Made by a program: the position numbers and the translations under genes. The notes beneath the pieces are model-generated. The model was given only the letters and a program-made list of their open reading frames with translations. It was not told the DNA's origin and did not search any database. A DNA stretch of 43,195 nucleotides from a virus, in the IMG/VR virus record IMGVR_UViG_3300020152_000037, positions 1 to 43,195 of that record; one strand, written 5' to 3'. Positions 1,630 through 41,282 of the stretch are shown piece after piece; positions within the stretch are counted from its first letter, which is position 1; every line of letters starts with the position of its first letter.

Positions 1630-1792
1630 CGATAATGTTAATTGGTATCCTAAACAGCCTTTCAATAATAAAGAAGAGATCCGCGAAAAGCTTGGCTATG
1701 ATCCAGAGAAGTGCAACCTTTATACCTGTGGCGTGTGCAGTAAGATACATATTGCTAGTTATCCTATGAAGAACAGGAATAATCAGAAATGA
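1592..1792 (+). CDS. Small putative zinc-binding protein, 66 aa
   Basis: Start ATG 1592 is chosen over ATG 1577 because GGAG at 1582-1585 is correctly spaced for it. The protein begins MKLKLLREHYQS and contains EKCNLYTCGVCSKIH, a cluster of three cysteines and a histidine that could bind zinc. The last codons overlap the helicase start by ATGA, implying translational coupling. It overlaps the preceding gene by 38 nt in a different frame. The function is unknown. Confidence 0.65.
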   Translation: MKLKLLREHYQSNDNVNWYPKQPFNNKEEIREKLGYDPEKCNLYTCGVCSKIHIASYPMKNRNNQK

Positions 1793-3534
1793 CTCTAGAA
1801 GACGAATTTAAGGAACTAGATAGGCGGCTTGAAAGCTATAGTTATGAATTTGTCAGTGTCACAGAGAAGGAACAACAGCTTAACGAGCAGATTGCTGCCA
1901 TTAGATTGGAGTTAGCAAGACTTCAAGATATTAAGTACGCCGTAAAGCAAAAGCAGCGCAAGGCTGTTATCGAAAAAGAATCTCTCGCGCGTAAGTTTGA
2001 ACTTCAAAAAGAAGCTGAAGCGATTCAGAAGTCTCTTGAAGAAAAGAGAGAAGAAGCCGAGAAGATTCTTGCTGATGCACCATGGCGAGACACTGCTTTT
2101 GATTGGCAAATTGAAGGAGCCCTTCAATTACCAGAGCGTGCGCTTCTTGGAGATAAGCGAGGAATGGGTAAGACTCTTAGCGCTATTATCTGGAGGCGTC
2201 TCCAGGGAGCTAAGAAAACTCTTATCTGTTTACGTCGTGAAGTGGCATCGGACTTTATCAAAGAGTTGGGTATTCGTGAGCCAGGTCTTTTCGTGTACTC
2301 ATTGCTCGGAGCTACATCAGAGACACGTAACATTGCTGCATCTCTTCTAAAAAATATTGATGAGTTTGTTGTAGTTACGAATATTGAATCTTGGCGTCGT
2401 AACGTTGATAAAACAACAGAGGATATCCTTAAGATTCCTTACGACGCTATTATTCTGGATGAAGCACATCATATTAAGAATACAAATACGGGTACTGCGC
2501 AAGGATTCTTCAGGCTTGCTCATAAAGTTCCTAAGGTACTAGAGCTAACAGGTACGCCTATTAAAAATCGGCCACAGGAGATGTTCTCTCTTCTCCATGC
2601 TTTGTATCCTCACCTGTTCCCGCGTGAGTCTAAGTTTCTTGTTGATTATTGTCACCAGGTTGCACAGAATAGGTATGTATTCTCGCCACAGGGGTTGAAG
2701 AATCTTGTCAATAAGATTAGTAGTTTCTACATTGCACGTAGTCCAGAAGATATTGGTAGGCAGGTTCCTCCCCCGCGTATGATTGAATACAAACTTACAA
2801 TGGATGGCCACACACAGCAGCAGGCCGCCTATAAGGAAATGACAGAACGTAGCATTGCTGTACTTGGTAGTGGGAAAGTTATTCCTATTGTCAGTCAGCT
2901 TGCTATTATGACGCGGCAGGCTCAGGTTGTTAGTTGGCCTGCCGGTATCAACTTTGAAATTAAAGATGAAGAAGGTTATGTTACTGAGGTAGTTAATTTT
3001 GATATCCATCAGTCCGTAAAAGCTGATTGGGCTGAGGATCTTCTTAGAGAACTAACTGAAGAAGGCGAAAGGACTATCCTTTTCTCCCGCTTCAAGCCTG
3101 CCATCTATGAACTTAAGAGGCGACTTGTTGCAGCGGGTATCTCTGTGGCTGTAATTACGGGGGATGAAAAGGCTAAGGGAAATACAGAAGATGTATTTAA
3201 TGACTTTGATCTGAAAACTGCTCCTGAGAATCCTAAGTATCAAGTACTTCTTGCGACTTATCAAACTGTTGGTGAAAGTGCCAACTTGAATGCTGCACGA
3301 CACATGATTCTATATGATCGCTTCTGGAATCCCGGTAATGAAGATCAGGCTATTGGGCGAATCGACCGGATTAATTCAATTGATCAGGCTACTGTGCATA
3401 TTCCGCTAGTTGAGGGCACTATTGATGAGTATATGACAATGCTTATTGATGAGAAGCGGAATATTGTACAGGACTTCAAGAGTGCCTCGGACATGCAGAC
3501 TAGCCTTATGGCGCACCTTAAGCAGACTGTATGA
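1789..3534 (+). CDS. SNF2-family DEAD/H helicase with N-terminal coiled coil
   Basis: This is a 581-residue superfamily-2 helicase/translocase. Residues 1-95 are a highly charged, probably coiled-coil region. The ATPase core starts near 105: Walker A GDKRGMGKT (121-129), DEAH (224-227) and TGTP (254-257). The second RecA lobe includes ILFSRFKPAI, VLLATYQTVGESANL and motif VI QAIGRIDRI (520-528). The order and motifs match SNF2-type dsDNA translocases found in many phages, where they are thought to help replication, recombination or protein displacement. It starts by ATGA overlap with the previous gene and ends by ATGA overlap with the next. Confidence 0.93.
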   Translation: MTLEDEFKELDRRLESYSYEFVSVTEKEQQLNEQIAAIRLELARLQDIKYAVKQKQRKAVIEKESLARKFELQKEAEAIQKSLEEKREEAEKILADAPWRDTAFDWQIEGALQLPERALLGDKRGMGKTLSAIIWRRLQGAKKTLICLRREVASDFIKELGIREPGLFVYSLLGATSETRNIAASLLKNIDEFVVVTNIESWRRNVDKTTEDILKIPYDAIILDEAHHIKNTNTGTAQGFFRLAHKVPKVLELTGTPIKNRPQEMFSLLHALYPHLFPRESKFLVDYCHQVAQNRYVFSPQGLKNLVNKISSFYIARSPEDIGRQVPPPRMIEYKLTMDGHTQQQAAYKEMTERSIAVLGSGKVIPIVSQLAIMTRQAQVVSWPAGINFEIKDEEGYVTEVVNFDIHQSVKADWAEDLLRELTEEGERTILFSRFKPAIYELKRRLVAAGISVAVITGDEKAKGNTEDVFNDFDLKTAPENPKYQVLLATYQTVGESANLNAARHMILYDRFWNPGNEDQAIGRIDRINSIDQATVHIPLVEGTIDEYMTMLIDEKRNIVQDFKSASDMQTSLMAHLKQTV

Positions 3535-3665
3535 ACAAGGACGAAATATTAGTTAAACTAAGGGAGATTAAAAATAGACTATTAGAAAAACATGCCTACG
3601 GTAAATGTGGTGGATTCTGTATTTTCTGTGAGGTGCCAAAGGATGTAAAAGATGAGCGAGAATAA
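3531..3665 (+). CDS. Small Cys-containing protein, 44 aa
   Basis: A short reading frame begins by ATGA overlap with the helicase stop. It encodes a charged helix (NKDEILVKLREIKNRLLEKH) followed by GKCGGFCIFCE, three closely spaced cysteines that could hold a metal with the nearby histidine. Its end overlaps the start of the next gene by 14 nt. The compact coupling with both neighbours supports it as a real gene. Function unknown. Confidence 0.7.
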   Translation: MNKDEILVKLREIKNRLLEKHAYGKCGGFCIFCEVPKDVKDERE

Positions 3666-3744
3666 AGTCTTTCTAGTAGGCTTGTTCGTGGGTATCGTTA
3701 TTGGCGCACAAATAGCAACAATTGTCAGTTACTTAAGTACTTAA
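3652..3744 (+). CDS. Single-span membrane peptide, 30 aa
   Basis: MSENKV is followed by a glycine- and valine-rich hydrophobic segment (FLVGLFVGIVIGAQIATIV) long enough for one membrane crossing, then a short polar tail. It overlaps the preceding small gene. AAAGATG and GAGAA context provides only weak ribosome-binding support, so translational coupling is likely. Function unknown. Confidence 0.6.
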   Translation: MSENKVFLVGLFVGIVIGAQIATIVSYLST

Positions 3745-3753
3745 GGGAGAAGA

Positions 3754-3951
3754 ATGATGGAGCACGTTGAGCCTTTGGAAACGATGAAGTCTGAAGTTGT
3801 TAAGCTTCTCGTTTCTAACTACGACTTTACTCTTGAGGAAGCAGAGGAGTCGGTAGAGGATTCCGTCAAGGAGAACGACGAAATTTGGAACGAGAATGCA
3901 TCGGCGGAAGATCTTGCTAAGTACGTTGCATCTGACGGTGATGACGAGTAA
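3754..3951 (+). CDS. Small acidic phage protein, 65 aa
   Basis: A well placed GGGAGA precedes the ATG; a second ATG directly follows. The protein is strongly acidic: VVKLLVSNYDFTLEEAEE, then NENASAEDLAKYVASDGDDE. This helical, acidic layout is familiar from small conserved hypothetical proteins of actinobacterial phages. No catalytic motif is visible. The gene is last before a hairpin at 3969-3992, so it may end a transcription unit. Confidence 0.8.
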   Translation: MMEHVEPLETMKSEVVKLLVSNYDFTLEEAEESVEDSVKENDEIWNENASAEDLAKYVASDGDDE

Positions 3952-5511: not shown

Positions 5512-6003
5512 ATGGGATGCACTGCCTGTGGCCGAGGTTTTCACGATGAATGTGATACAGGCTGCCAGAACTGCCATGTAGACTATAGGCAACTAGCTAA
5601 ATCAATTTCTACAATTGGCGGTGAGAGAGGAGCGCCAACTAAAGATCCTGAAAATGTTAAGGATGTACTTTCTACCGGTCGTAAACGTGCAGCAAAGTTG
5701 TATCCTATCTTTAAAGGTAAGCCTTGTGAATGGCAGGGATTAAAAAATTGTGGAGGGGGTACGCCTATTGTAGGATGCATTAACGGAATTCAAACAGATA
5801 GACATCATGGTCCGGTTAAATTACCTTTAAGAAATGAACCGGGTAACGTACACAGAATTTGTAGTCACTGTCATAACAGATGGCACGCTGTTAATGATCC
5901 TATATATAATGAGGAAGAATACGATAAGACTAAGCATGAACCAGAGCCCGCCACAGAGCTGGAACTTATCGCTAACGAAGCTAAATGGAGAATTAAATCA
6001 TGA
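5512..6003 (+). CDS. HNH-type endonuclease-like protein with zinc cluster
   Basis: A 163-residue protein begins with a Cys-rich segment (CTACGRGFHDEC ... CQNCH) and has a central QTDRHHGPVK and a C-terminal HRICSHCHNRWHA. The conserved histidines together with the CxxC pair resemble the zinc-stabilised HNH nuclease fold often found in actinobacteriophages. The exact catalytic residues cannot be fixed by eye. It starts directly after the membrane-protein stop and ends by ATGA overlap with the Cas4-like nuclease, so it probably belongs to the DNA-processing group. Confidence 0.75.
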   Translation: MGCTACGRGFHDECDTGCQNCHVDYRQLAKSISTIGGERGAPTKDPENVKDVLSTGRKRAAKLYPIFKGKPCEWQGLKNCGGGTPIVGCINGIQTDRHHGPVKLPLRNEPGNVHRICSHCHNRWHAVNDPIYNEEEYDKTKHEPEPATELELIANEAKWRIKS

Positions 6004-8283: not shown

Positions 8284-8298
8284 GAAAGGAGGTAATAT

Positions 8299-8381: not shown

Positions 8382-8396
8382 GAAAGGAGGTATTAT

Positions 8397-8479: not shown

Positions 8480-10198
8480 ATGACGAATGAATTCCTTTCT
8501 GAACTGTTTGACGGTCAGGAAGGTATCGTTTATGCCCCTGTTAAAGGGGAAATTTGGGAACAACATTTCTTTGAATGGCCACAGGAGCGAAATAAGTTAG
8601 AAAGACATTTAAAAGATTATGATAAACGAGATGTCTACATTTCACCCGTCTTATTTAATGAGCCAAGAATATCGCCCGAAACATTCAGAGGTACTAACTT
8701 CTTATGGACAGAGTTTGACGGTACCCTACCTTCTGAATACATTCAGCCAACCATTAGAATCGCATCCTCTTTACCTGGACATGAACACTGGTACTGGAAA
8801 CTAGATCACTTTGAGACTGACAAAACTTTAATCGAAGACTTAACACGTCGTATTGCATATCATTATGGTGCAGACTTAAGCGTATGGGATTATCAAAATG
8901 TACTCCGTCCAGTTGACACTTGGAACCATAAAAGAAATAAGCCAGTTGTTCTCCTTGATCGATCTGGCACTGTTTATTCAATGGATAGGTTTTTCTCTCT
9001 TCCTACTGCTCCCGCTGGTTCCAATGTTAGCATTTCGCTTGGATCTCTCCCAAGACGAGACCAAATCTTAGCTAAATACAAATGGTCGTATGATGCGCTT
9101 GATCTCATCTTTAAGGATGAAGTCCCTAAGGGCAGTCGTTCTGATGCACTAGCGCGACTTGTTCATGAGTGCTTAGAAATGGGATTAAGTAATGAGGAAA
9201 CCTACGTACTCCTTGAAGATAGAGACTCAGTATGGGGTAAGTATGTAGGACGTAACGATAGAGAGAAACGACTTGAAGCAACAATCAACAATGTAAGAAG
9301 TCGTAAATCTTTCGTTGCAGAAGTTGTACAAGGTGCACCAGAAGTCTACAGATTCCATGACTTTATGCAAACCAACATTAAGCTGAAGTGGGCTATCGAA
9401 GGTTTGCTCCCTGTGGCTGGTTCTATGGTTATTTTTGGTAAACCTGGTATTGGTAAAAGTACGTTCTCTCTGCGTCTCGCTATGAATTTAGCTCTTGGGA
9501 AGGAGAAGTTTCTACTCTGGAATATTATTAATAAACAACGAGTACTCTTCGTCTCTCTTGAAATGCAACACTATGAAGTCAAAGAATTCTTTAACGATAT
9601 GCAGATACCAGAAGAAGAGCAGCTTGCACTACAGGAGCAGTTCTTTATCTGGCCTATTGGTAATCCTTATCCGTTTGATACCCCTGATCAACAAATTGAA
9701 CTTATTAAGCATATCAAGACGCATAAAATTGAAGCAGTCATCATTGACTCACTCAGTATCGCTATGTACGGATCAGTCAAGGATGATGATGCTATTAAGC
9801 GTCTAAACAGTTTCTTGAATGAAGACGTACGTAGAGATCTTAAGTGTAGTTATATTTTTATTCACCATCCCCGTAAAAAGGGTATCGGTGAAGAGAGAAA
9901 GGATGACGATCAAGATGACGCTTTTGGTTCAACTTACATTAATGCTAATGCACAAACTGTTGTCGTACTTTCATCGAAACCAGGATCAGTAAAGGTTCAT
10001 GTTAAATTACTTAAAACGCGAATGTCTCATGGTATGAAGGACTTTGACATTCAACGCACTCCTGATAGGGGGTTTGTACTTGCTGGAACAGCTGCACCTA
10101 TTACCGGAGAAGTCGTTACTTCTTCCGATGAAACAGGGGAAACCGAAGGCAAGCAAAAGCCAGATGCTCTCTCACTTGGCAAATTGCTTGACATTTAA
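8480..10198 (+). CDS. Primase-helicase (prim-pol-like N-terminus, RecA-fold helicase C-terminus)
   Basis: The 572-residue protein has an N-terminal region with WTEFDG (near 77-81) and SSLPGHEHWYWKLD (near 96-109), matching motifs of archaeo-eukaryotic-type primases. A RepA/DnaB-like helicase follows: Walker A GKPGIGKS (320-327), FVSLEM, Walker B AVIIDS (419-424) and IFIHHPRKK. It would unwind the fork and prime synthesis. The ribosome-binding site AAGGAGG is excellent and follows a three-hairpin leader. The C-terminus ends DALSLGKLLDI, a tail shared with the 41284 protein. It overlaps the exonuclease gene start by 35 nt. Confidence 0.88.
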   Translation: MTNEFLSELFDGQEGIVYAPVKGEIWEQHFFEWPQERNKLERHLKDYDKRDVYISPVLFNEPRISPETFRGTNFLWTEFDGTLPSEYIQPTIRIASSLPGHEHWYWKLDHFETDKTLIEDLTRRIAYHYGADLSVWDYQNVLRPVDTWNHKRNKPVVLLDRSGTVYSMDRFFSLPTAPAGSNVSISLGSLPRRDQILAKYKWSYDALDLIFKDEVPKGSRSDALARLVHECLEMGLSNEETYVLLEDRDSVWGKYVGRNDREKRLEATINNVRSRKSFVAEVVQGAPEVYRFHDFMQTNIKLKWAIEGLLPVAGSMVIFGKPGIGKSTFSLRLAMNLALGKEKFLLWNIINKQRVLFVSLEMQHYEVKEFFNDMQIPEEEQLALQEQFFIWPIGNPYPFDTPDQQIELIKHIKTHKIEAVIIDSLSIAMYGSVKDDDAIKRLNSFLNEDVRRDLKCSYIFIHHPRKKGIGEERKDDDQDDAFGSTYINANAQTVVVLSSKPGSVKVHVKLLKTRMSHGMKDFDIQRTPDRGFVLAGTAAPITGEVVTSSDETGETEGKQKPDALSLGKLLDI

Positions 10199-10694
10199 TT
10201 ACATAGCAGTAGACACCGAAGGTTTTGCTCCTAATCCTTTGGGCATCTCAGTAGCACATCCTGCTTTAGAGTCGATGTATTTTCCTATCGGCCACAGGGA
10301 GGATGTCAACATTGATGCAGAAGTATACGAATACCTTGTTCATGTACTTAAAACGGTTCGCTATAGGATTATGCATCATGCTGGGCATGATCTTATTGTT
10401 CTGCCTTTTCTTTTTGATCTTCCTTTTGTGGATACGATGATCCTAGCTCATATGGTTGATGAAAACCTAATGAGCAAAGGTTTGGACTATCTCCATAAAT
10501 ACTACTGTGGCGGCGATGGTAAACAGATGGACCCTTTAATGGATTCCATCATTAAGACTATGGGCTGGGATTACGTCCCTTTTGAGTTGATGAATATGTA
10601 CGCTGAAGAAGACGCACGAATCACTATGCAGTTATTCCAAAAGTTGCTCGATATGTATGAAGAACAATTCGGTCCCCTCTGGAGTGAAGTATGA
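10164..10694 (+). CDS. 3'-5' exonuclease (DnaQ/PolA DEDD type), separate from the polymerase
   Basis: The protein carries the three Exo motifs: YIAVDTEG, HHAGHDLIVL, and NMYAEEDARITMQLF (Y-x3-D type). This is the proofreading domain normally fused to family A polymerases; here the polymerase domain is encoded 4.2 kb downstream at 14930. Start ATG 10164 is inside the primase gene; no better start with a Shine-Dalgarno is visible, and TTG 10188 is possible. The stop overlaps the next ATG. It probably acts with the separate polymerase. Confidence 0.85.
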   Translation: MLSHLANCLTFNYIAVDTEGFAPNPLGISVAHPALESMYFPIGHREDVNIDAEVYEYLVHVLKTVRYRIMHHAGHDLIVLPFLFDLPFVDTMILAHMVDENLMSKGLDYLHKYYCGGDGKQMDPLMDSIIKTMGWDYVPFELMNMYAEEDARITMQLFQKLLDMYEEQFGPLWSEV

Positions 10695-10990
10695 GCGCTC
10701 TGTTATACATTATCAGCCCTGTGGCCGCACTCGCTTTGGTTTGTCTTTTCCTTATTCTGATGTATGTTAAGATAGTTAACTATGGGGTACCTAAGTTTTC
10801 TACTTCACATCGGCATCCTGAGAATAAGCGGACTAGAAGAAAGCGTAAGGAGGTGACAGTTAAGAAGCAGACTACGAATATTATCGATCCAATCAAAGAG
10901 GAGACTAGCTACTTTTCAGATCTTAAGAGTACAACAGCTGAATCTGTTAGAGGCTTTAATGCCGAACTCAACAAGATTGCGAAAGGGTAA
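10691..10990 (+). CDS. Single-span membrane protein with basic cytoplasmic tail, 99 aa
   Basis: An N-terminal hydrophobic segment (LLYIISPVAALALVCLFLIL) is followed by a strongly basic stretch (NKRTRRKRKEVTVKKQ) and a polar C-terminal half. The topology would leave most of the protein in the cytoplasm. It starts by ATGA overlap with the exonuclease. A role in anchoring replication or a lysis accessory is possible, but nothing in the sequence decides it. Confidence 0.7.
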   Translation: MSALLYIISPVAALALVCLFLILMYVKIVNYGVPKFSTSHRHPENKRTRRKRKEVTVKKQTTNIIDPIKEETSYFSDLKSTTAESVRGFNAELNKIAKG

Positions 10991-10999: not shown

Positions 11000-11233
11000 A
11001 TGTCATCTGGTAAGCATCTAGATACAGGAGCATTTGCCACAGGTTCAGCAACTTACTCTGGACTACATAGAGCCGGAGAGATGGACATGGGTGTAGGTTT
11101 TTGGCCCATGGGTGATAGGTCGCGTGATAGGCTAATTGATTTAGGCAATGGAAACGGAACTGGAGTATACGAAGAAAGGGAACCTGTTGACAAATACACC
11201 AAGTACTACTCCCCCAACAGATCCAAACGATGA
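11000..11233 (+). CDS. Small hypothetical protein, 77 aa
   Basis: MSSGKHLDTGAFATGSATYS is followed by a glycine- and aspartate-rich segment. The ribosome-binding site is weak. Its last 86 nt overlap the next gene in another frame, so one of the two boundaries may be wrong. Function unknown. Confidence 0.55.
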   Translation: MSSGKHLDTGAFATGSATYSGLHRAGEMDMGVGFWPMGDRSRDRLIDLGNGNGTGVYEEREPVDKYTKYYSPNRSKR

Positions 11234-13612: not shown

Positions 13613-13833
13613 TGGTAGTTGTTATTCCTGATCCACCTACGGTGTATCTTAAGGAACATGCGGATCACCTTGAATTTGCTCCCAATAGTGTGGTTTATCT
13701 TTCTAACCACCTAGGCGAATTACAAATCAAGATATGCGACCTCTGTGGCTATGAGACAATCAGATGCATGCATATCAGAAATAGAACTGATTTTGAGAAG
13801 AACACCATCACTTGTCTACTATGTGGGGAATGA
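13612..13833 (+). CDS. Stand-alone zinc-ribbon protein, 73 aa
   Basis: The start ATG 13612 overlaps the previous stop. The C-terminal half has IKICDLCGYET, a central CMH and ITCLLCGE, forming a C-x2-C ... C-x-H ... C-x2-C zinc ribbon. The same domain forms the C-terminal half of the next gene (IKICATC ... CRH ... ICGLCGS), so the two are paralogous. Its stop overlaps the next ATG. Confidence 0.75.
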   Translation: MVVVIPDPPTVYLKEHADHLEFAPNSVVYLSNHLGELQIKICDLCGYETIRCMHIRNRTDFEKNTITCLLCGE

Positions 13834-14204: not shown

Positions 14205-14493
14205 AGAAGAAGAAGCTAAGCTCGCCTCAATCAAAGAGTCTCTTGAAAGAGAGATTGCAGGAAAGGAAGAATTTTACCTTAATCTAGAGATGATGCTTTG
14301 GATGGCCACAGAGCTGGAAAAGGCTCATGAAGAAGTTAGTACAATTGTTAAAAAGGCTAAAGACCGGCTCATGACTGATCTTGGCGCAACGGAACCATTT
14401 GCACATAAGTTTATGCAACAGACAGCTATGAGTGGTCGCATGCGTTTAGTTGATGTTGCTATCAACGTCCTTACTGCTGATACTTTGGTGTGA
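14194..14493 (+). CDS. Helical protein paralogous to the preceding gene's N-terminus, 99 aa
   Basis: It begins MLTKEEEAKLASIKESLERE, parallel to the previous gene, and shares the later W-A-ELEKA/W-A-RLKEL pattern. The rest is helical (TIVKKAKDRLMTDLG) and ends without cysteines. It overlaps the previous gene by 11 nt. It is probably a duplicated helical module lacking the zinc ribbon. Confidence 0.75.
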   Translation: MLTKEEEAKLASIKESLEREIAGKEEFYLNLEMMLWMATELEKAHEEVSTIVKKAKDRLMTDLGATEPFAHKFMQQTAMSGRMRLVDVAINVLTADTLV

Positions 14494-28442: not shown

Positions 28443-29663
28443 TTAGGCCTCGATAATACCTGTGATCATACCGTGCGAGTTACGACGGTGAGTACCAAGC
28501 TGCCAGTACTTGAACATACGAGCACGATAAGCATCATACTCACCAGAAGAGTCAATTAAGCGCTGCCACATATTACCATCACGGTTCATCCAAGACCAGT
28601 CACCGTTCTGGTAAATCTTAATTTCCTTCTCATTCATCCAGTACATACGTCCAGGCTGGCAATCGAAATCCGCAACAATCGGAATCTCGCCATTATCAGT
28701 CGTAAACGCAATACCGCTAAATCCACCAGTGAACTTAGTAGTGTTAACATAACGCCGCTGCTGCTCCAGAAGATTAGCATAAGCGCGACGAACACCAAGA
28801 GAAGTAAATGCCACAGTGGGGGCACCACCGCGAGTACGCATCTTATCAACCATATTTAACATACGGCCTTCAGAAATAGCGCCAGCAGTAGAGTCCATAT
28901 TACCGGTCCACGTAGAGTGCGTAATACCATAAAGAGCACCAGTACCGGTACCAAGAGCATTCGTAGCAGTTAAACCAGCAACAATCTGCTCGAAACCAAC
29001 AGGCTCCTTACTACGAGAACCCGTACGAGTCATAAAGTCACCAACAGCAACAGCAGTAACCGTAGAACCAAGAGTTACAGTGAAGACACCAGCGGCTTCA
29101 GTAATATCAGTAATTTCAATGTTAGCATTATTCAGAACAGGAACAGAGTTGGTGTCTGTGGCATCGTAAAGATCCACAAACATACCAACTTCAAGGTACT
29201 GCGCATTGCTAGTAACAAAAGTAGTCGTAGAACCGGAAGACGCAACTGCGAGAATTCCAGTACTCGTACCATAAACCTGCCGGTTGGTCTCTTTCTTAAG
29301 ACCTTCCCGCATTCCGTTAACTTCCTGGTCTAAAACAGACGCAAAAGCCTGAGCATTGCTATCAGCTAACTCAAAAGTCTGACCAGAAAGCTGGATAGCA
29401 CCGTAGTTGTAAGAAAGATTGAGCTGAGCCGAACGATAATCCTGAGTCTTCGGGTTCGGCAGAGCTTCCATTTCATTACGAGCACCGATACCGTGGTTAC
29501 GCTTAACTCGCACAGCGAATCGAACGTACTTACCACCGATACCATCGGTTTCGACACCCTCGTTAGTCTTTTCAATACGAGAGATAGTAATAACTTCAGA
29601 CTGCAACTGATCCCGAACGCGAGGCTCGTAAACCTCTTTTAGAATCTGAGTAGCGGTCGTCAT
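28443..29663 (-). CDS. Major capsid protein
   Basis: The 406-residue protein begins MTTATQILKEVYEPRVRDQL and has GGKYVRFAVRVKRNHGIGA, LNLSYNYGAIQLSGQ, and KKETNRQVYGTSTGI. The later part contains DCQPGRMYWMNEKEIKIYQN. These are features of an HK97-fold capsid protein, and the position downstream of the scaffold gene fits. The nearest Shine-Dalgarno (GGAGG) lies about 20 nt upstream of the ATG, farther than usual. Expected to form the shell. Confidence 0.85.
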   Translation of the reverse strand: MTTATQILKEVYEPRVRDQLQSEVITISRIEKTNEGVETDGIGGKYVRFAVRVKRNHGIGARNEMEALPNPKTQDYRSAQLNLSYNYGAIQLSGQTFELADSNAQAFASVLDQEVNGMREGLKKETNRQVYGTSTGILAVASSGSTTTFVTSNAQYLEVGMFVDLYDATDTNSVPVLNNANIEITDITEAAGVFTVTLGSTVTAVAVGDFMTRTGSRSKEPVGFEQIVAGLTATNALGTGTGALYGITHSTWTGNMDSTAGAISEGRMLNMVDKMRTRGGAPTVAFTSLGVRRAYANLLEQQRRYVNTTKFTGGFSGIAFTTDNGEIPIVADFDCQPGRMYWMNEKEIKIYQNGDWSWMNRDGNMWQRLIDSSGEYDAYRARMFKYWQLGTHRRNSHGMITGIIEA

Positions 29664-30748: not shown

Positions 30749-31218
30749 TAAATAGATCCAGAATCATCAGAAATACGCAACTGGTAATCTTTATCATTTT
30801 CTGTCAAAGTAGCGATACGAGCTGCTGTAAACCCCAAATCAGCAAGCCTTCGATCTTTTTCACCAGTACTATATCCAAGACCAACCTCCTTTATAGTATC
30901 TCCAGAAACAGGAGCAGTAGCCGCAGCGGGTGTAAATGTAACTGTAGTACTAGCAGCAACAGCAATAGCTGTAATTCGGAAGACCTTCTCTTCCTTTAAA
31001 ACACCTGTAGATGTAAATAACTTGAACTCGTCACCGATACGCACAACATTAGTGTTAGTAGCTGGTGCAGCGTTAGCACCAACAATAGTAGTTGTCGTAC
31101 CTGTGGCGTTTGCAGTAAAAACTACAGGTCCACCAACTACACGAGATTCAAAATCATCTTTATAAGTACGACGCTTATCTACATACCCAACTAACTGATC
31201 ACCAAGTTGGTGAGTCAT
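30748..31218 (-). CDS. Beta-rich hypothetical protein, 156 aa
   Basis: The sequence has an Ala/Thr/Val-rich beta region (FTANATGTTTTIVGANAA, AASTTVTFTPAAATAPVSG) and ends with a short helical part (RLADLGFTAARIATL). Placed after the portal gene with its start overlapping that stop. A head-associated or decoration-type role is likely but unproven. Confidence 0.65.
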   Translation of the reverse strand: MTHQLGDQLVGYVDKRRTYKDDFESRVVGGPVVFTANATGTTTTIVGANAAPATNTNVVRIGDEFKLFTSTGVLKEEKVFRITAIAVAASTTVTFTPAAATAPVSGDTIKEVGLGYSTGEKDRRLADLGFTAARIATLTENDKDYQLRISDDSGSI

Positions 31219-33299
31219 TACATCATCCCTCCTGAAGATTCTCCTTCTAATTCTGGCATCGGTTCAGGACCCGTAGTTTCCCCTTCACCTTCTTGTTCCA
31301 TTTGCTCCATAGCCATTTCCTCTTCTTCTGGATCAGGAGCATTAGGATTACTTGGGTCCATACCCGTTAACGGATGTACTGCCTGTCCTGCTAAAGCTTC
31401 CATATGCTGTCTAACATGCTCTTCAAAAAGTCGCTTTGTAACTGGAGACGCACTTTCGAAGTTTTGACTCTTACGATAGTTGTTATGAATCTCAATGTGC
31501 AATGCGTGATTATCATAGGTATGAATGGGAACAATCAGCGGAGGTTCTAGCTGCAAACCAGAATCAATATCTTTAGCAGCTTCCGGATTATTCGCCATAA
31601 ATTCCTGCATATGTGCCTGGACATCTTCATCAGTCACAACACGCATCTTAAGATTTTCACGCTGAGCTTGACGTTTATCAATTTGAATTTCTTCATAGAG
31701 TCGATTAAGTCCGCCAACCTCCATAAGTTCCAGACCCTTATCCGGCGGGATGAATCCCATCTTCATAAGGTCCATAATAAAGGCTTGCTTAGCAGCACGA
31801 GAAGTGGGAAGTGCAGAACCTGATTCTACTCGAATATCACTATTACCTCGAAGATCAGCACCTTTGAAAGTTTGTACATCAAAAGTACCCTCAATACCTA
31901 CGAGCTTAACAGTTCGCTCTTCATCCCAGAACATCTTTACATAAGTAAGGCACTGACTTGCTACCTTTTCGATGCCTTCTTCAATCGAGGTGTAATGGGT
32001 ACTAATTAGACTTTCGTCTTGCTCCTGCAAGAAACTAATTGCAGTAGCGGCGGTAACCCCAGGCGGCGTACTGCCATTACTAACCTCGTGCTGTCCAGAT
32101 AAATCTGCAATATCAGTGTAGAGACGATTAACTTCTTCTGTAACATAAGTAGGAATATTCTGTAACGGTAAAGGCTGTGGAGGATTAAATCCTACAGCAT
32201 ATTCAATAACCTGTCCAGGTTCGGTAGTAATCTTACGAGGGTCGACAGTACCCTTTTCAGCCACTAACTGTGGCTTAGCCATTCTATTCTTAGCTTCAAT
32301 TAACTGCGCACGCGTACGGTTAAGCTCCTGCTGTAAAGGAATCAAATCCTCAATAACAGAAGCGGTGTAAAATTTACCTGTGAGAATACCGTCAAGCTTC
32401 GTAAAAGGATACTGTCCATGCTCGTAAGGCCAATAATCAAAACCCTGCACTAGTTGTTCAGCAGCAATAGTAAACATGCCACCGTTAGGTAGTTCAGGTA
32501 AATAACCGGGCTTTACCCATACTTCAAGAATAATTGACTGATCTTTCCCAGTTTCATTTCTATCAACACCCATAACACTTTGCAAAGTAGCATCTACGGA
32601 TTCAAGTTTGTTACTTACAGCTTCAACACCGTAGTTCTGCCTAATCCAAGAATTATTCTTTACCTGAGCCTGAATAACATAAGGCTGATCTTCAATATCT
32701 GTAGCCATTAAATCAGGTACAAAAATGTGAAATGGATTTACATTCTGAATTGCAATATCACCTGCTTGTTCATTATCAGTATCCATAGCAGTTGGGTCCC
32801 AGTAACTTTTAAGGAATCCATTACCAGTAACAGCTTGCCAAAAAATAGCTTCCCGAAGAGTCTTATTAAACTTAAGTCTCCGCCACAGGGAGTCCCAGAT
32901 CTGCTCACCCGCCTGTGCCGCAAATACATCTGCATCTTCTGTAGAAGAAGGAACAACAAATGCATTGGGCTTTTGAGCAGTAAGTCTGGAAATCTCCTTG
33001 CGAACAGTTCTACGAATCTGATTGATTACAATACGTACTCGATAATAGGGAGCCTTCGGAGTGTATAAGTCAAACGCTCCAGAGCCCGGAACGTTTCTAA
33101 ATTGAACATGCTGATTACCGGCAAAGAAAGCGTAATTGAGATACCACTGTCGTTCGTGGCGACTTCGCTCATTCTGACATTTATTAAACCACTGCATTGC
33201 AATAGCGGCTAATCGAGCCCTTCGAGCGTCAGCATCTCTACCTTCTTGTGTAAAGAAACCAACACTCGTAAGCCCCGTAGGATTATCTGGATATGTCAT
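31218..33299 (-). CDS. Portal protein, P22-like, 693 aa
   Basis: The N-terminal part reads RHERQWYLNYAFFAGNQHV, RVRIVINQIRRTVRKEISRL and FWQAVTGNGFLKSYWDP. It has the typical long portal core with LIPLQQELNRTRAQLIEAKN and DIADLSGQHEVSNG. Length and motifs fit P22-type portals of short-tailed phages. It ends with an acidic, Met/Glu-rich tail (EEEMAMEQMEQEGE). GAGGA lies 8 nt before the ATG. It would form the dodecameric vertex ring for packaging and ejection. Confidence 0.9.
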   Translation of the reverse strand: MTYPDNPTGLTSVGFFTQEGRDADARRARLAAIAMQWFNKCQNERSRHERQWYLNYAFFAGNQHVQFRNVPGSGAFDLYTPKAPYYRVRIVINQIRRTVRKEISRLTAQKPNAFVVPSSTEDADVFAAQAGEQIWDSLWRRLKFNKTLREAIFWQAVTGNGFLKSYWDPTAMDTDNEQAGDIAIQNVNPFHIFVPDLMATDIEDQPYVIQAQVKNNSWIRQNYGVEAVSNKLESVDATLQSVMGVDRNETGKDQSIILEVWVKPGYLPELPNGGMFTIAAEQLVQGFDYWPYEHGQYPFTKLDGILTGKFYTASVIEDLIPLQQELNRTRAQLIEAKNRMAKPQLVAEKGTVDPRKITTEPGQVIEYAVGFNPPQPLPLQNIPTYVTEEVNRLYTDIADLSGQHEVSNGSTPPGVTAATAISFLQEQDESLISTHYTSIEEGIEKVASQCLTYVKMFWDEERTVKLVGIEGTFDVQTFKGADLRGNSDIRVESGSALPTSRAAKQAFIMDLMKMGFIPPDKGLELMEVGGLNRLYEEIQIDKRQAQRENLKMRVVTDEDVQAHMQEFMANNPEAAKDIDSGLQLEPPLIVPIHTYDNHALHIEIHNNYRKSQNFESASPVTKRLFEEHVRQHMEALAGQAVHPLTGMDPSNPNAPDPEEEEMAMEQMEQEGEGETTGPEPMPELEGESSGGMM

Positions 33300-33642
33300 G
33301 GTTCACATCCTCAAAAGGATTACCACCTGTGAACCCAAAGTCTTGAATAGCGTAGTGCTTAATATCTTCGGTAGTCATATAATTAGACTCACCTAGACCC
33401 TGCATTTGTGCAAGTCTCTGTGCCTCGGATTCATCATCCTGTGGCACATATGTAGTTTCAGTCTCCAGCTTCGAGGAGTTTTGCAAGGCTAGGAACGTCC
33501 GAACGTCTGGGGCTTGGAGTCGATTTAGTAACTCCTGATTCTGTTTTAGAAGTTCCGCTACTATTGGTGGCTGCCTTGTCAGGCTCCATACTAGGATTAA
33601 TATCAGCATCAGTATGATTACTAGGAGACTGTACGTCAACAA
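33283..33642 (-). CDS. Membrane-anchored small protein overlapping the next gene, 119 aa (TTG start)
   Basis: It begins LLTYSLLVIILMLILILVWS, a strong membrane segment, followed by IVAELLKQNQELLNRLQ, a likely coiled coil, and a polar C-terminus. An AGGAGGTG (33655-33660 region) sits about 12 nt upstream of the TTG start, inside the upstream gene. The first 185 nt overlap the 3' end of that gene in another frame. Both frames look coding. It overlaps the portal start by 17 nt. Function unknown. Confidence 0.65.
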   Translation of the reverse strand: MLTYSLLVIILMLILILVWSLTRQPPIVAELLKQNQELLNRLQAPDVRTFLALQNSSKLETETTYVPQDDESEAQRLAQMQGLGESNYMTTEDIKHYAIQDFGFTGGNPFEDVNHDISR

Positions 33643-34030: not shown

Positions 34031-35475
34031 TAGATCTCTCCAAAAGAGTACTCAGCAGGACCGCTACTATCGAAGTAGAATCCTGAATCAACTTCCCAGG
34101 GAAAGTCTTGCCTGTTAGTTTCCGTCAAGCTTTTACTCTGTCGGAAACTTTTCTGTTCAGGAGCTAGATAGGGCATAAACCCAAAGAAGTAACCGCAGGA
34201 ATCCATAGCATGGTCATTCTTCTTATTAGGCTCTTCTCGTCTGTTATTACGATCAGCAATCTTAGCTGAGTTAAAGATCTTAAATGCATAACCTCTAGCT
34301 TCTTTAATAGTGTTTGGACAAGCATCTGTAATGTGCCAACGATCGTACTTCAAGTACTCATTCATCTTATTAATTCGGCCAGGAACATCCTTCTTAGCCT
34401 GAATTAAAGGAATACCATTATCCCTATAGATTTGCAAAGGAGAAGATCCCGTTTCAGCAGTTTTTTGACTCATGGAAGGATCGCCCATGTAAATCTGTGG
34501 CGTTCTACCGATTTCGCGATTAACTTCTTTGATCTTAGCTGCATGCTGCTTGATTAACCACTTACGCATGTAATGTTCTCTGAACGTTACTACTCGACCA
34601 TCAGGAGATACAGCATGCCAGAGAATCGCAGTAGGGTTATTAAAACCATGGTCGATTGAACAGTAGATAGTCCAAGATGCAGGTATCGGACCACCACCTT
34701 CAATAACATGTCTACCGTGATCAAACTCTGATAATACTAAACCGCCCTTAGGTACAAAAATACCCTGACGACGGATTTTCTTCTCATCATCGTCAAGGTC
34801 ATCATCGAGTAGCGCCAAGGCTTGTTTATTTAGATGAGGATTGTCGTCAATGTTGACTTCAAACATATCCACATTTTTTGCTTTTGAAACAATGAACCTA
34901 TCGAAGATCCAGTCTTGACCTTCAACAGGAGTCATTGTCATATACCAACAACCATTGTAGTCAATAAGTCGAAGGCGACATTCATTGAAGATGTCTTGTG
35001 GACATTCTTCATCAAACCATACCCAGTGAAGCGGAACACCAGCAAAAGATTCTACTTCTTGCTGATGCGTCTTCAATTCAATTGTAGATCCGTTTCTAAA
35101 TGTAAATGTCTTTCTTGCATTGCTATATGAATCCTCCCAGGACCCATTTACTCTTTCACTTGTTGGAATCCATTGCTGAAGTAGTGGTTTAATAATCTGT
35201 TCAATACCTGCATCACGGTCAACTGTTACAATACGTCCGCGTGTAGGTACTTCATGCGTATTCTGATATGGATGTCGTCCTGTAGATCTCCAGACACTTT
35301 CTACCATTCCGGCAACTGATTTTCCAGAGCGGTTACCCCCCCGTAAAATCCTGCCTACTTTGGTAGATTTATGGAATTCCTCATGTGTGGCTGAGTTAGC
35401 TTTATATGCAAGTACGTTCGGCTTTTTAGCCGCAAACTGCAAGGAGCTTGCTAGTTGTTCCAGAAAATCTTCCAT
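34030..35475 (-). CDS. terL: Terminase large subunit
   Basis: This 481-residue protein has Walker A GGNRSGKS (46-53), Walker B VWFDEE (152-157), and a C-terminal RNase H-type nuclease: CSIDHGFNNP (D275), YMGDPSM (D332) and NHAMDSCGY. It powers DNA packaging and cuts the concatemer. It sits between the 90-aa protein and the zinc-ribbon gene and has overlapping boundaries on both sides. Confidence 0.95.
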   Translation of the reverse strand: MEDFLEQLASSLQFAAKKPNVLAYKANSATHEEFHKSTKVGRILRGGNRSGKSVAGMVESVWRSTGRHPYQNTHEVPTRGRIVTVDRDAGIEQIIKPLLQQWIPTSERVNGSWEDSYSNARKTFTFRNGSTIELKTHQQEVESFAGVPLHWVWFDEECPQDIFNECRLRLIDYNGCWYMTMTPVEGQDWIFDRFIVSKAKNVDMFEVNIDDNPHLNKQALALLDDDLDDDEKKIRRQGIFVPKGGLVLSEFDHGRHVIEGGGPIPASWTIYCSIDHGFNNPTAILWHAVSPDGRVVTFREHYMRKWLIKQHAAKIKEVNREIGRTPQIYMGDPSMSQKTAETGSSPLQIYRDNGIPLIQAKKDVPGRINKMNEYLKYDRWHITDACPNTIKEARGYAFKIFNSAKIADRNNRREEPNKKNDHAMDSCGYFFGFMPYLAPEQKSFRQSKSLTETNRQDFPWEVDSGFYFDSSGPAEYSFGEI

Positions 35476-35747
35476 CAGGAACCAAAACCTAAATCTCTGA
35501 GTGCATCAATCACAGCTTGCATCTGTGCTTGAGTATAGGCAGGAGTGGCAGTCGAAGGAAAAGTAGCATCTAGCCCTTTACCTAATCTCCTAGAATTCTT
35601 TCCATTATGAGTATGATCTCCCGGACTTGCCTGATCATGTTGAATCCCTAAAGTGTGATGTTGAGCCACAGAGGAGGAATCAACATCTGAATTCTGATGA
35701 AACTTGTTAACCTCAGTAGATGAAGGATTCACACCAGGACTAGTCAT
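35475..35747 (-). CDS. Small tail-fibre-region protein, 90 aa
   Basis: ATG 35747 gives MTSPGVNPSSTEVNKFHQN, which overlaps the upstream stop. It contains HHTLGIQHDQASPGDHTHNG and a C-terminal helix (QAQMQAVIDALRDLG). The H-x-LG--H-QASPGDH pattern is common in phage head-fibre or tail-fibre linked proteins. It probably belongs to the receptor-binding group. Confidence 0.7.
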   Translation of the reverse strand: MTSPGVNPSSTEVNKFHQNSDVDSSSVAQHHTLGIQHDQASPGDHTHNGKNSRRLGKGLDATFPSTATPAYTQAQMQAVIDALRDLGFGS

Positions 35748-36301: not shown

Positions 36302-36867
36302 TAGGCCACCGCCGTAGGGTAACTAAAGTAGCCAGATACTCGATCGTTTTGTGCGATAGTGAAAGGATCGTTAAATGACCAAACAGATCCGTTGTGCTTT
36401 CTAAAGAACATAGTTCCTAATGAAGGACTATACATAGCAACCAAAACAGTAGCATTTGCCACAGTGTCGGTATCTAAGAGGTAAGCCTTACCGATAGGTA
36501 CCGAATCTTGGAATGTTCCTAAACTAACTGGATCAGGAGCCACAGGGAGTGAAAGTTGGTATAATCCCGCACCTGTGGCAAATCCTGCACCACCTGTTAA
36601 AATTCTGTAGTAACCAAAAACCATCCGAGGATGTATTCTAATGTAATTACCGTTTACCGATCCCCCTGCACCAAGTACTGGATTACCACTTCCTCCAGTC
36701 CATGCAGGAGCATAAGTAATTCCCTCAGCTCTGAATAAACCATCTACCTTATCCATGTTGGTAGCATTTTGACTCGCCCAACCAGGAAAATCAGGTAGAT
36801 CTTCTCGAATAGATTCTTCTACATCAGGTTTAATCAGACCTAAATGAGTAGTTACTGTTGTTCCCAT
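36301..36867 (-). CDS. Receptor-binding-type protein paralog 2
   Basis: A 188-residue protein: TTVTTHLGLIKPDVEESI at the N-terminus, then NPVLGAGGSVNGNYIRI, GAGLYQLSLPVAPD, SVPIGKAYLLDTDT and RVSGYFSYPTAV. It shares its framework with the genes on both sides. The N-terminal anchor LG-KPxxExS is typical of small fibre proteins with an attachment part followed by a beta-rich tip. The stop abuts the neighbour. Confidence 0.7.
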   Translation of the reverse strand: MGTTVTTHLGLIKPDVEESIREDLPDFPGWASQNATNMDKVDGLFRAEGITYAPAWTGGSGNPVLGAGGSVNGNYIRIHPRMVFGYYRILTGGAGFATGAGLYQLSLPVAPDPVSLGTFQDSVPIGKAYLLDTDTVANATVLVAMYSPSLGTMFFRKHNGSVWSFNDPFTIAQNDRVSGYFSYPTAVA

Positions 36868-37468: not shown

Positions 37469-37601
37469 TTACAATAACACCTCCCCTCTGAATCGTGATC
37501 CATATAGTAAACTGAATTATGCAGCCACAGAGGTACGTCTATCTTATCAGAGACAAAGAACGAACCGTCTCTAGAGAGTAGCACTGTTAGGAACAATTCC
37601 A

Positions 37602-38366
37602 TTAGCCAAAGCCTATCTGCTTCTTAGCAGCTTCTAATTCAGGATCGTGTTCGATTACCGAACCATTAATTGCAGGCTTCTCTGTGGCTACTTCTAAGGT
37701 CCTATTAGCAGCTGCCAATTTAATATCCTGAGCAATGGCAACAATAGTATCAGGATCTTTAACGTGCCTCTGAATGATCTCAACGATCATCTTAAGTAGC
37801 TGTTCACTCTGTGGCTGATCATTACTAGTAAGTTCACCAGTTGTCTCCAACCAGTACTTAATAGCGTTCCAATCACCCTGGTTAATCTTCTTTGTAAATT
37901 CACCAATAGCAGTTGGTCGAATGTGAGCTAAGTTTTGATCTGCTAAGTTATCAATTGCATTCTTAAAGGTTGGATCTTTCAACCATGCATAGTATTGTGT
38001 AGAGGTAACACCAAGCTGATCTAGTTTCTCATCATTACTTCTAGTATCAGCAAAATTCATCATTGTCACAGCAGCAGCTACCTGAGTCGGCGTTAACTCA
38101 ACTTGAGTGTGCTGTTGCCATGGAATTCCACGGTTGTCAAGTGCCTTCGTGAAATTCTTACGTGTAAAGTAGTAATTAAGTGCTGAATGTTTTAGCCTGT
38201 GGTGCTTACCATCTTTTTCGTATTTTCTGTTGATGTATTCTACCACATCCTCGTAAGTAGGTACCCTGTGGCGCAGAAACCATTCTAACTCGTAATAGTT
38301 AATGATCTCTTTCTCAGTGCTGCTTAAAGCAGCTTTAATAGCGTGGTATTGTCCTCTGCTAACCAT
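37602..38366 (-). CDS. TerS-like DNA-binding protein, 254 aa
   Basis: ATG 38366 is preferred, with GAAGG upstream. The first part is helical and basic (HRVPTYEDVVEYINRKYEKD, LNYYFTRKNFTKALDNRG). A second HTH-like part reads SNDEKLDQLGVTSTQYYAWLKDPTF, typical of small-terminase or resolvase-like HTH. A helical end follows. Position upstream of TerL (with the fibre genes between) suggests the small terminase subunit; I see no alternative candidate. Confidence 0.7.
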   Translation of the reverse strand: MVSRGQYHAIKAALSSTEKEIINYYELEWFLRHRVPTYEDVVEYINRKYEKDGKHHRLKHSALNYYFTRKNFTKALDNRGIPWQQHTQVELTPTQVAAAVTMMNFADTRSNDEKLDQLGVTSTQYYAWLKDPTFKNAIDNLADQNLAHIRPTAIGEFTKKINQGDWNAIKYWLETTGELTSNDQPQSEQLLKMIVEIIQRHVKDPDTIVAIAQDIKLAAANRTLEVATEKPAINGSVIEHDPELEAAKKQIGFG

Positions 38367-38922: not shown

Positions 38923-39338
38923 TAATCAGGAATCCTAACGTTCTCTAGCTTTGTGTAGGCATCCAGGTAAGTTTCTTCTTTGTCACCGTTGTAAGTGACT
39001 TCAAAAAGAAACTGGTCTTTAGTTCCAATAATTGCAATAATAGCTTTCCAGTTCTGAAGAGTCTTACTAAACCAGACCACTTTAACGTTACTGAAGTTAA
39101 AATTAGAATCAAGAGCGTTCTCTTGAGCCCACTGAAATACAAAAGAACGAGCCTTAGTCTGTGGCTCGATTTGCTCGAGCTTAGTAGCACTAGTGTTTTC
39201 TACTTCTTGTAGTTTAGTTCTAAATTCTTTTTGTTCCTCAGTTAGAGGTTCAGATACAGCGTGAATGTCGTGGCTATAATCTTCTCCACACTTACATAGA
39301 TGTGAGTTAGAAGCCTTCTCAAATTCATGTGCTTCCAT
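38922..39338 (-). CDS. DUF6275-like protein, first gene of the late operon
   Basis: ATG 39338 (MEAHEFEKAS) is chosen as start. After a short HLCKCGEDYSHDIH element come a helix and KVVWFSKTLQNWKAIIAI, EVTYNGDKEETYLDAYTKLE and VRIPD. The VVWF-KTLQNWKA ... TYNGDK-E-Y-D-Y pattern is that of DUF6275 proteins in Gram-positive phages. Function unknown. It lies about 50 bp below the putative promoter and CRP-type site. Confidence 0.75.
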   Translation of the reverse strand: MEAHEFEKASNSHLCKCGEDYSHDIHAVSEPLTEEQKEFRTKLQEVENTSATKLEQIEPQTKARSFVFQWAQENALDSNFNFSNVKVVWFSKTLQNWKAIIAIIGTKDQFLFEVTYNGDKEETYLDAYTKLENVRIPD

Positions 39339-39441: not shown

Positions 39442-39640
39442 CTGCTGTCATCAGCATTCAGCCCTGGATCATCCTCAGCCCAGGTAAGCCCTTTCCTTGC
39501 TCCGTACAGGCTCTAACAGGCTGTCTAGGTGTCTCTGTCTGGGTAAGGCTTCTAGAGGCGTACAGAGGCTCTCAGGCTGCCGTCTTCACTTAATTCTTTA
39601 CATTTGTAATAAAGGGAAATCAGCCACAGGCAGGCGGAAC
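39442..39640. other. GC-rich gene-free patch with imperfect repeats
   Basis: The stretch is visibly GC-richer than its surroundings. Two imperfect copies of CGTACAG(AG)GCTCT(AA)CAGGCTG occur at 39503-39523 and 39559-39579. One copy of the GCCACAG motif lies at 39623. On the minus strand a stop-to-stop frame (about 36 codons) reads LEALPRQRHLDSLLEPVRSK but has no start. It may be a remnant of an imported gene, like the patch at 13121. I see no supported gene here. Confidence 0.35.
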
Positions 39641-40210: not shown

Positions 40211-40320
40211 ATAAAAGAGGCAATAGGCTCTCAAATACGATAAACACACAATAGGTCACTAATAGCGTCAAATCATAATCTTCAATTATTTATCTCAAAA
40301 ATGGTGTATATGGGGTGTGA

Positions 40321-40407
40321 ATGAGCGTGAATGAGGCATTCCCACGGAGGCGCAGCCGAAGTGTTTTGGGGAATGATGATTTACGCGATTCCTTTTTATC
40401 TAAGTGA
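40321..40407 (+). CDS. Doubtful very small ORF, 28 aa
   Basis: ATG 40321 follows a GGGG run and encodes SVNEAFPRRRSRSVLGNDDL before a stop at 40405. The sequence overlaps the hairpin region and has no recognised family. It may be spurious. Confidence 0.2.
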   Translation: MSVNEAFPRRRSRSVLGNDDLRDSFLSK

Positions 40408-40454
40408 GTAAATGATTACATAAACGGGGCGTAGCCCCAATGTAATCAATTTAC
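40337..40454. other. Two large hairpins in the control region
   Basis: CATTCCC (40337-40343) pairs with GGGAATG (40369-40375). A second, stronger structure has outer arms 40408-40421 and 40440-40454 (GTAAATGATTACAT against ATGTAATCAATTTAC, one bulge) and an inner GGGGC/GCCCC stem (40426-40430/40434-40438). They could terminate transcription, form a small RNA or be part of an origin. The remaining DNA up to 40646 holds a short CATTCA/TGAATG stem and no supported gene. Confidence 0.5.
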
Positions 40455-40646
40455 GAGCGTAGTCTCCCCATTCATAGACATCATACCCTCTCTGACCTGC
40501 ACATTCGTGGTATTCACCGGGATATGCTACTGTGCACCATGCATATGCACATTCACCTCTGAATGAGCGATTAGTCCCATGACTAGGGGGACAAAATCGG
40601 ACACACCGGGCAGAACCGTGCTACCATAATTAAGGAAAGGTGAGAT

Positions 40647-41282
40647 ATGGATAAGTACCATGAGCCCATTCTTAGTTTCATTACAAGGAATGGTGAGTCG
40701 GGAGTAAATGAGATTGCTAAAGCTACAGGGATTCCCCTTAGTACAACACAGAAATATCTAGAGAAGCAGAGTTACTTTAAGAAAACAGTACGGCGTAAAT
40801 GGGATTTGCCACAGAATGTAACAGAAGAGTTTGAAAGCACTATTGAATCAAATAGATTAGCTTTGCTTAGTTCTGCCTTGGAGACGCAGGCATTGCTCAT
40901 TAATCAGCAAGTGGAATTACTCCAGAACGCATTTGAACAAATGGTAACCCAGATCCAAACAATAAAGCCTTTATTAGAGAACCATCGCCCCCCTGTGGCG
41001 AATAAGAACAATTCCACAATTGATATGGATTCGCGTCTTATTAATGTTATTGATAATTGGACTAAGCTTAAGAACCTATTTAAGAAGCAAAAGGATGTTA
41101 TTCCTGAGGAGTACAGAGATTTGTTCTTTAATCTGGATTACGTTGGATTTGTACTAAAAGATGGAGTAGAGTACGTCACTAAGTTTTTAGAAGATAATAC
41201 ATACGAAGTATTAGTAGGAAAGAATAAAGTATTGGATGAAGATACGATTAGTATCCTTAAAGAGAATCAAAAAGAGGGATAA
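40647..41282 (+). CDS. Winged-helix DNA-binding protein with coiled coil, 211 aa
   Basis: The N-terminus has ILSFITRNGESGVNEIAKAT and GIPLSTTQKYLEKQSYFKKT, a typical winged helix-turn-helix. A long helical region follows (ALLINQQVELLQNAFEQMV) and then a C-terminal domain (DLFFNLDYVGFVLKDGVEYV). It probably binds DNA as a dimer, perhaps the TCGGACAT sites or the repeats upstream, as regulator or replication initiator. AAAGGTGAG precedes the ATG. It is followed 1 nt later by a partner gene. Confidence 0.75.
   Translation: MDKYHEPILSFITRNGESGVNEIAKATGIPLSTTQKYLEKQSYFKKTVRRKWDLPQNVTEEFESTIESNRLALLSSALETQALLINQQVELLQNAFEQMVTQIQTIKPLLENHRPPVANKNNSTIDMDSRLINVIDNWTKLKNLFKKQKDVIPEEYRDLFFNLDYVGFVLKDGVEYVTKFLEDNTYEVLVGKNKVLDEDTISILKENQKEG

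Follow-up and report, generated by a model that had tools for sequence, protein, structure and literature searches.

Why should a phage genome carry the same seven-base word dozens of times, on both strands and in every reading frame of its genes? We asked this of IMG/VR virus record IMGVR_UViG_3300020152_000037, a soil phage whose 43,195 bases make up the whole stretch analyzed here (hereafter, the window), and in which CTGTGGC, or GCCACAG on the opposite strand, is the commonest 7-mer. We predict that CTGTGGC is very probably the recognition and initiation site of the phage's own primase-helicase, a protein encoded at 8480..10198 on the plus strand in which an archaeo-eukaryotic primase (AEP) and a RepA-like helicase are fused. 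The prediction draws on the enrichment of the word, its regular spacing along each strand, its conservation and turnover among relatives, its exchange for sister words that tracks changes in the primase, and the fold predicted for that protein.

Enrichment and strand-wise spacing of CTGTGGC

A direct scan of both strands yielded 47 copies (25 plus, 22 minus), against expectations of 3.1 under an order-2 and 4.3 under an order-3 Markov model. Shuffling synonymous codons within genes left 8.9 +/- 2.0 copies, with a maximum of 15 in 500 shuffles. A maximum-order Markov model, under which 30 copies are expected, was dropped as an unfair null because it includes the motif's own 6-mers. Single-base variants of the word are scarce, at 0-10 copies each. 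Most sites (43/47) lie inside genes, in all three frames, with 20 sense and 23 antisense; the signal sits at the DNA level. The base 5' of CTGTGGC is C in 27 cases, T in 16, A in 4 and G in none, so that a pyrimidine stands there in 43/47; one base further 5', C is favored (26/47), and the base on the 3' side is C in 8/47. A 5' pyrimidine as a general rule was abandoned, because in genome G014 G dominates at that position.

The sequence-only reading of the window had already recognized the enrichment and the near-even split of orientations, and both stand with corrected figures: it had counted 45 copies (24 CTGTGGC, 21 GCCACAG), overlooking those at 3143 (plus) and 11036 (minus), and its positions were right except for two that were off by ten bases (19078 for 19068, and 22436 for 22426). 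Its expectation of about 3 copies agrees with our order-2 estimate, and its assignment of the signal to the DNA level, in all codon frames, with the distribution of sense and antisense sites. The remark that the next base is never C holds for the GCCACAG reading, there being no G 5' of CTGTGGC, and fails for the base 3' of CTGTGGC. It was also correct that the word is absent from 1-1725 and 41000-43195, although we judge these ends too short, at such a density, for their lack of sites to be remarkable. As checks it had proposed a codon-shuffled background, with an expected count near 40 speaking against the signal, and a comparison with related phages; the shuffles fall far short of that count, and every relative that we examined (approximately 70% nucleotide identity) has the same enrichment.

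The sites on the plus strand are at 1726..1732, 3143..3149, 5526..5532, 9411..9417, 10505..10511, 10719..10725, 13743..13749, 15517..15523, 16827..16833, 19068..19074, 20848..20854, 24313..24319, 26679..26685, 28162..28168, 29156..29162, 31101..31107, 32268..32274, 33439..33445, 34495..34501, 36573..36579, 37682..37688, 37809..37815, 38266..38272, 39159..39165 and 40993..40999. Those on the minus strand are at 2571..2577, 2685..2691, 5950..5956, 8578..8584, 10291..10297, 11036..11042, 14023..14029, 14305..14311, 18505..18511, 21317..21323, 22426..22432, 22720..22726, 26157..26163, 26270..26276, 28810..28816, 32882..32888, 35665..35671, 36458..36464, 36539..36545, 37524..37530, 39623..39629 and 40808..40814.

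When each strand is taken separately, the sites show a regular spacing, a property that had gone unnoticed. In the window the per-strand spacing has a coefficient of variation (CV) of 0.66, where random placement gives 0.95 (P = 0.0027); several relatives are even more regular. The relatives carry 39 copies in 44.7 kb, 49 in 46.6 kb (25/24 by strand), 43 in 46.3 kb (21/22) and 38 in 31.1 kb, with a similar density in fragments, a strand balance that is often near-perfect (25/24, 21/22, 19/20), and a mean same-strand spacing of approximately 1.7-2.8 kb. Summed over eight genomes, the same-strand CV is 4.70, compared with 7.33 +/- 0.44 if sites are placed uniformly and 6.50 +/- 0.36 with only the strand labels shuffled, and adjacent same-strand gaps shorter than 1 kb number 51, compared with 98.8 and 84.7, respectively; the P values for spacing are not fully independent because the genomes share ancestry. 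For other common 7-mers of these genomes, median CVs are 0.89-0.98. Among pairs of sites less than 1 kb apart in seven relatives, 42 are on the same strand (approximately 100 expected) and 110 on opposite strands (approximately 103 expected), and in relative G012 the next site lies on the other strand in 21 of 22 steps. Coverage of one strand is thus independent of the other, and same-strand copies shun each other below about 1 kb. Whatever reads the word therefore deals with each strand separately and needs a site once in every 1-3 kb; the layout is that of strand-specific sites at the spacing of Okazaki fragments.

Individual sites are also constrained, since aligned CTGTGGC sites are kept in place in 39.6% of cases as against 12.0% for 7-mers of the same composition. 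Over half of the sites nonetheless turn over among relatives, while their number and strand balance stay.

The primase-helicase and the words of its homologues

The proposed reader is a protein of 572 residues with an AEP domain at approximately residues 1-180, a helical, putatively HBD/PriCT-like domain at approximately 190-279, and a RecA/RepA-like helicase at approximately 290-530. No Pfam AEP model matched it. The sequence contains the AEP-like motifs E78-x-D80, S96...GHEHWYW and AD-S-WD...LRP-x-T-x-N-x-K; within these, E78-x-D80, S96...G100-H101-E102-H103 and D132/D137 are invariant or nearly so in 17 homologues, and provide the two acidic residues of catalytic motif I, the S-x-H-like motif II and the acidic motif III. 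Because a full-length AlphaFold2 model gave only helicase matches in Foldseek, we modeled the N-terminal part alone. The best solved structures for the model of residues 1-284 (mean pLDDT 88) were RepB' (PDB 3h20, E 2.9e-9), the PrimPol of cyanophage S-2L (6zp9, 2.1e-7) and RepB' with DNA (3h25, 1.2e-6), followed by CAPP and human PrimPol, with moderate TM-scores of 0.4-0.7. The C-terminal half matches the RSF1010 RepA helicase (1nlf, E 2.9e-11), and residues 193-279 form helices with a conserved W-x-K-F/Y. The structural models thus assign the primase domain an AEP fold, and the phage protein resembles a fusion of RepB' to RepA in which a helical domain separates the two.

A 25-base repeat that includes a strong ribosome-binding site (CCCTTTTGAAAGGAGGT) is present in three near-identical copies, at 8277-8301, 8375-8399 and 8460-8484, the last of which runs into the start codon of the primase gene; the copies resemble start-associated sequences (SAS).

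In the cultured cousins of this phage the top word is itself related to CTGTGGC. Among more distant phages the top words are CTGTGG (101 copies in Jasmine, 90 in Brad), CTGTAG (98 in ctEqG8), CTGTCG (116 in DS1), CTGTAAAG (45 in Shocker), GTGTGG, GTGTGC, CTGTGC and CCGTGCG. Most other IMG/VR phages with a homologous primase have CTGTAG words. GTGTGG occurs in Serratia phage Serbin and in Gordonia phages SheckWes and Cleo, and GTGTGGC in Microbacterium phage Neferthena; these four have the primase at approximately 24% identity, and their hosts and structural genes are quite different. In SorJuana (GTGTGC, 114 copies with 30.1 expected), Yappy (CTGTGC, 124 with 56.6 expected) and CN1A (CCGTGCG, 59 with 16.5 expected), the primases match over the N-terminal part only. 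Regular spacing recurs with other words in distant lineages, as judged by CV: CTGTAGG in G021 (0.53) and G023 (0.41), CCTGTAG in G022 (0.47), GTGTGGC in Neferthena (0.53) and GTGTGG in Cleo (0.62).

The word family was defined after most of these genomes had been seen, and only three cases were blind: we expected GTGTGG beforehand for Pseudomonas phages PMBT14 and Lebethron and for mycobacteriophage Muddy. GTGTGG was the top 6-mer in all three, with 74 copies against 16.5 expected, 90 against 23.0, and 71 against 23.2, respectively.

On a primase tree the words fall into clades: CTGTGGC, with G014 and its CTGTAGC(G) as sister; CTGTAG; GTGTGG; and [CG]TGTGC together with CCGTGCG. Phages of Serratia, Pseudomonas, Gordonia and Mycobacterium share GTGTGG, whereas two Microbacterium phages differ, Shocker having CTGTAAAG and Neferthena GTGTGGC. 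The word co-varies with primase phylogeny; neither the host nor the structural genes show such a link to it.

A profile built on the N-terminal part of the primase detects it in 32 genome records and fragments. As controls we used T7 and six actinobacteriophages picked by a match to a Cas4-family exonuclease, in all of which the profile was absent or only marginal; those with marginal matches, GrandSlam, TPA4 and Adonis, may have an AEP of a different type. Of approximately 7,000 7-mers, the best from the word family ranked 1-8 in 30 of 30 primase genomes (first in 24), compared with 49-648 in these seven phages without a close primase homologue. The same ranking recovers known elements in the controls: the T7 promoters in T7 and an SAS-like repeat in Adonis.

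Several further enriched words turned up in this survey. Shocker has TACCCTA (25 copies, 1.1 expected) beside CTGTAAAG; CTATGCTAC and ATAGGATAG are enriched in Jasmine and AGGCTAT in DS1, and these three are perhaps promoters or start-associated repeats. Mycobacteriophage SchoolBus has TTCGGAAACCGAA-like words, at 30-40 copies, that are unrelated to the primase word.

A predicted priming site and its rivals

Known enzymes suggest how such a word could be read. The phage protein's two halves find their best structural matches in RepB' and RepA of RSF1010, which are two separate proteins acting at defined ssi sites; in the phage they are fused, and the candidate sites are many and dispersed. Primase ORF904 of the archaeal plasmid pRN1 likewise has an AEP-type domain followed by a helical domain, requires a template GTG that is held by the helix bundle, and pairs its first two nucleotides with the two bases 5' of that GTG; in the template used for nuclear magnetic resonance, 5'-CTGTGCTCA-3', which shares CTGTG with the window word, ATP sits on T and dGTP on C (PMC11009956, PMC8076596). 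ORF904 differs in its three-base specificity, its small plasmid and its superfamily 3 (SF3) helicase, and no genome-wide grid of sites is described for it in those two reports. The NrS-1 primase-polymerase, also a phage AEP, is efficient on GTGG or GTGA and also reads the 8-nt TTTGGTTA, starting 1-4 nt upstream and mainly at the first upstream base (PMC8718748); unlike the protein studied here, it has a ring-forming C-terminal domain and acts as the replicative polymerase. CTGTGGC holds GTGG preceded by CT, and so matches the AEP layout of a GTG or GTGG with start bases on its 5' side.

We therefore propose the following mechanism. On a single-stranded template 5'-Y-C-T-G-T-G-G-C-3', the 3' part, GTGGC, would be held by the helical domain and left uncopied. 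Synthesis by the catalytic domain would begin opposite T, move on to C, and give a primer beginning 5'-ApG and continuing with purines over the upstream pyrimidines. The presumed extender of these primers is the family A DNA polymerase encoded at 14930..16126 on the plus strand (phrog_17, E 9.8e-61). Start bases C-T and a recognition element GTGGC would account for a T that hardly varies, a C that most words keep, and a 3' part whose sequence shifts along with the primase. Where G replaces the C, as it does in the siphophage clade, the second primer base would be C. Each strand, as lagging or displaced template, would need a start point every one to few kb, and selection would therefore keep approximately one site per 2 kb on each strand, in whichever codon frame is available. 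The equal coverage of both strands throughout suggests that either may serve as lagging or displaced template anywhere. We infer that the primase binds the word, where it starts, which primer it makes, that both strands act as lagging templates, and that there is selection for coverage on the Okazaki scale.

The T7 gene 4 protein is also a phage primase-helicase with short template sites, 5'-(G/T)2GTC-3', but its primase is of the TOPRIM/DnaG type. The Okazaki range of 1-6 kb quoted for T7 brackets the spacing of approximately 2 kb seen here (PMC12839067). For the two T7 pentamers that we tested, GGGTC and TGGTC, we saw no regular spacing, nor does any such word head the T7 7-mer ranking. Chi sites, stoperators and SAS are likewise short words repeated in bacterial or phage genomes, and SAS-like repeats were what topped the ranking in Adonis. 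SAS and stoperators are, however, mainly intergenic and oriented with transcription, whereas the window word lies in genes, in every frame and without an orientation rule; an L5-type stoperator was rejected on the 43/47 sites in genes, 20 of them sense and 23 antisense.

A number of observations weigh against a priming site. Co-inheritance alone cannot single out the primase, because the polymerase and the Cas4-type exonuclease often travel with it. The word is not the top one in Cleo (rank 5) or SheckWes (rank 3), the spacing of the genome's own word is not significantly regular in G015, ctEqG8, Jasmine, DS1, Shocker, Serbin or Lebethron, and the pyrimidine preference at -1 gives way to G in G014. 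CTGTAG, CTGTCG and CTGTAAAG keep GT without a literal GTG. The pRN1 structure was not among the matches that Foldseek listed, and the helical domain was assigned by its position and helix content. Characterized primases mostly need 2-5 nt, so that a 7-nt requirement is unusual. The nearest case to such a site is the 8-nt TTTGGTTA of NrS-1 (PMC8718748).

Among the four roles listed in the sequence-only reading, we retain the first, a primase start site, and disfavor the other three. Because its gene often accompanies that of the primase, the phage's Cas4/RecB-type exonuclease (6000-6935) provides the best of the rival explanations, namely that this enzyme, or a host RecBCD or AddAB, is switched to recombination at the word as at a Chi site. 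The exonuclease gene is near the primase gene in the window and in many relatives, and the word shares the GT-richness and asymmetry of known Chi sites and covers both strands. SorJuana and Yappy carry both genes and so do not separate them, which is why we turned to the Cas4-positive controls; a tblastn search of phage records with the window's exonuclease found nothing, and the SorJuana Cas4 served as the query in its place. The six Cas4-family-positive actinobacteriophages, which have no close AEP homologue, lack the word family (best rank 106-648). Chi activity would offer no reason for same-strand copies to exclude each other below 1 kb, and the hosts differ while the word follows the primase. 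We consider a Chi-like role quite improbable.

Slighter still is the chance that the word binds a DNA-organizing, segregation or packaging protein, for which the winged-helix protein at 40647-41282 (HTH_24, E 0.00018) would be a candidate and with which the even, genome-wide spread would fit; a binder of double-stranded DNA has no reason to space its sites independently on the two strands, the word matches the specificity of AEP primases, and distant phages share the word family despite unrelated structural genes and hosts. We place lowest, and level with each other, the two remaining explanations. An asymmetric 7-mer on both strands could be kept for a methyltransferase or nickase as a modification, restriction or nicking site, and localized genome nicks do occur in some phages, yet Pfam revealed neither enzyme among the window proteins examined (part of the open reading frames), and the regular spacing on each strand and the drift of the word with the primase would go unexplained. 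Alternatively, the word could derive from the host, as a host Chi, uptake or segregation signal, or be a by-product of composition. The comparison covered the hosts of cultured cousins; the codon shuffles speak against composition, and the host-derived reading is largely refuted by the comparison of hosts, in which one genus harbors phages with different words (Shocker, Neferthena) and very different hosts harbor phages with one word (Serbin, PMBT14, Muddy).

The phage genome and a possible priming grid

A megablast search of phage records with the window gave no match. Its portal, terminase and polymerase show approximately 30-40% identity with their counterparts in Arthrobacter phage Jasmine, Microbacterium phage Shocker, Cellulosimicrobium phage DS1 and the uncultured podophage ctEqG8, with which it shares a two-arm gene layout: a rightward arm of replication genes (1-17 kb) and a leftward arm of structural genes (17.8-39 kb). 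DNA polymerase A is split, with a 3'-5' exonuclease domain at 10044-10694 and the polymerase domain at 14930-16126, in genes approximately 4 kb apart, and the polymerase gene encodes just 398 residues, compared with approximately 581 in Jasmine. A small protein encoded at 14194-14493 has an ANTAR (RNA-binding antitermination) domain (E 2.4e-9), which seems unusual for a phage replication region. The PstI site CTGCAG occurs once in the window, where approximately 16 copies are expected (order-2 Markov), and is also depleted in G004, G005, G014, Jasmine, ctEqG8 and DS1 and not in G011; its scarcity probably reflects restriction avoidance. In the site-free right end, imperfect direct copies of approximately 70 bases (71-84%) lie at 41888-41959 and 42479-42551, 591 bases apart.

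In the open-access literature that we searched, we found no report of the CTGTGGC word or of grids of primase sites, and a survey of Microbacterium phages lists other repeats and not GTGTGG. Primase sites are already known; what that literature did not yield is one of 6-9 bases that leaves its mark on each strand of an entire genome and can be traced in its evolution through sister words. We think it reasonably likely that a "priming grid" spans the genomes of a large class of phages with AEP primase-helicases, the primase having widened its specificity to 6-9 bases and the word being selected approximately every 2 kb on each strand. If so, the start points of Okazaki fragments would be fixed and predictable on both strands, and a genome alone would suffice to read off what any such primase recognizes. 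The near-equal coverage of the strands would further suggest that either can be lagging or displaced at any point, for example in recombination-driven replication.

Primase sites are usually three-base words that are lost in the background, and it is hard to learn where in a genome they are used. Here the site, its length, its strand and its spacing are visible in the genome itself, in dozens of phages with different words, mycobacteriophage Muddy included. Sequence thus becomes a means of predicting what a primase recognizes, and the phages supply a natural series of primases with specificities altered base by base, as in the step from CTGTAGC to CTGTGGC that separates sister clades. The start points of lagging-strand fragments also become open to direct testing. 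Replication, on this evidence, would be a force that shapes genome sequence at the DNA level across coding regions.

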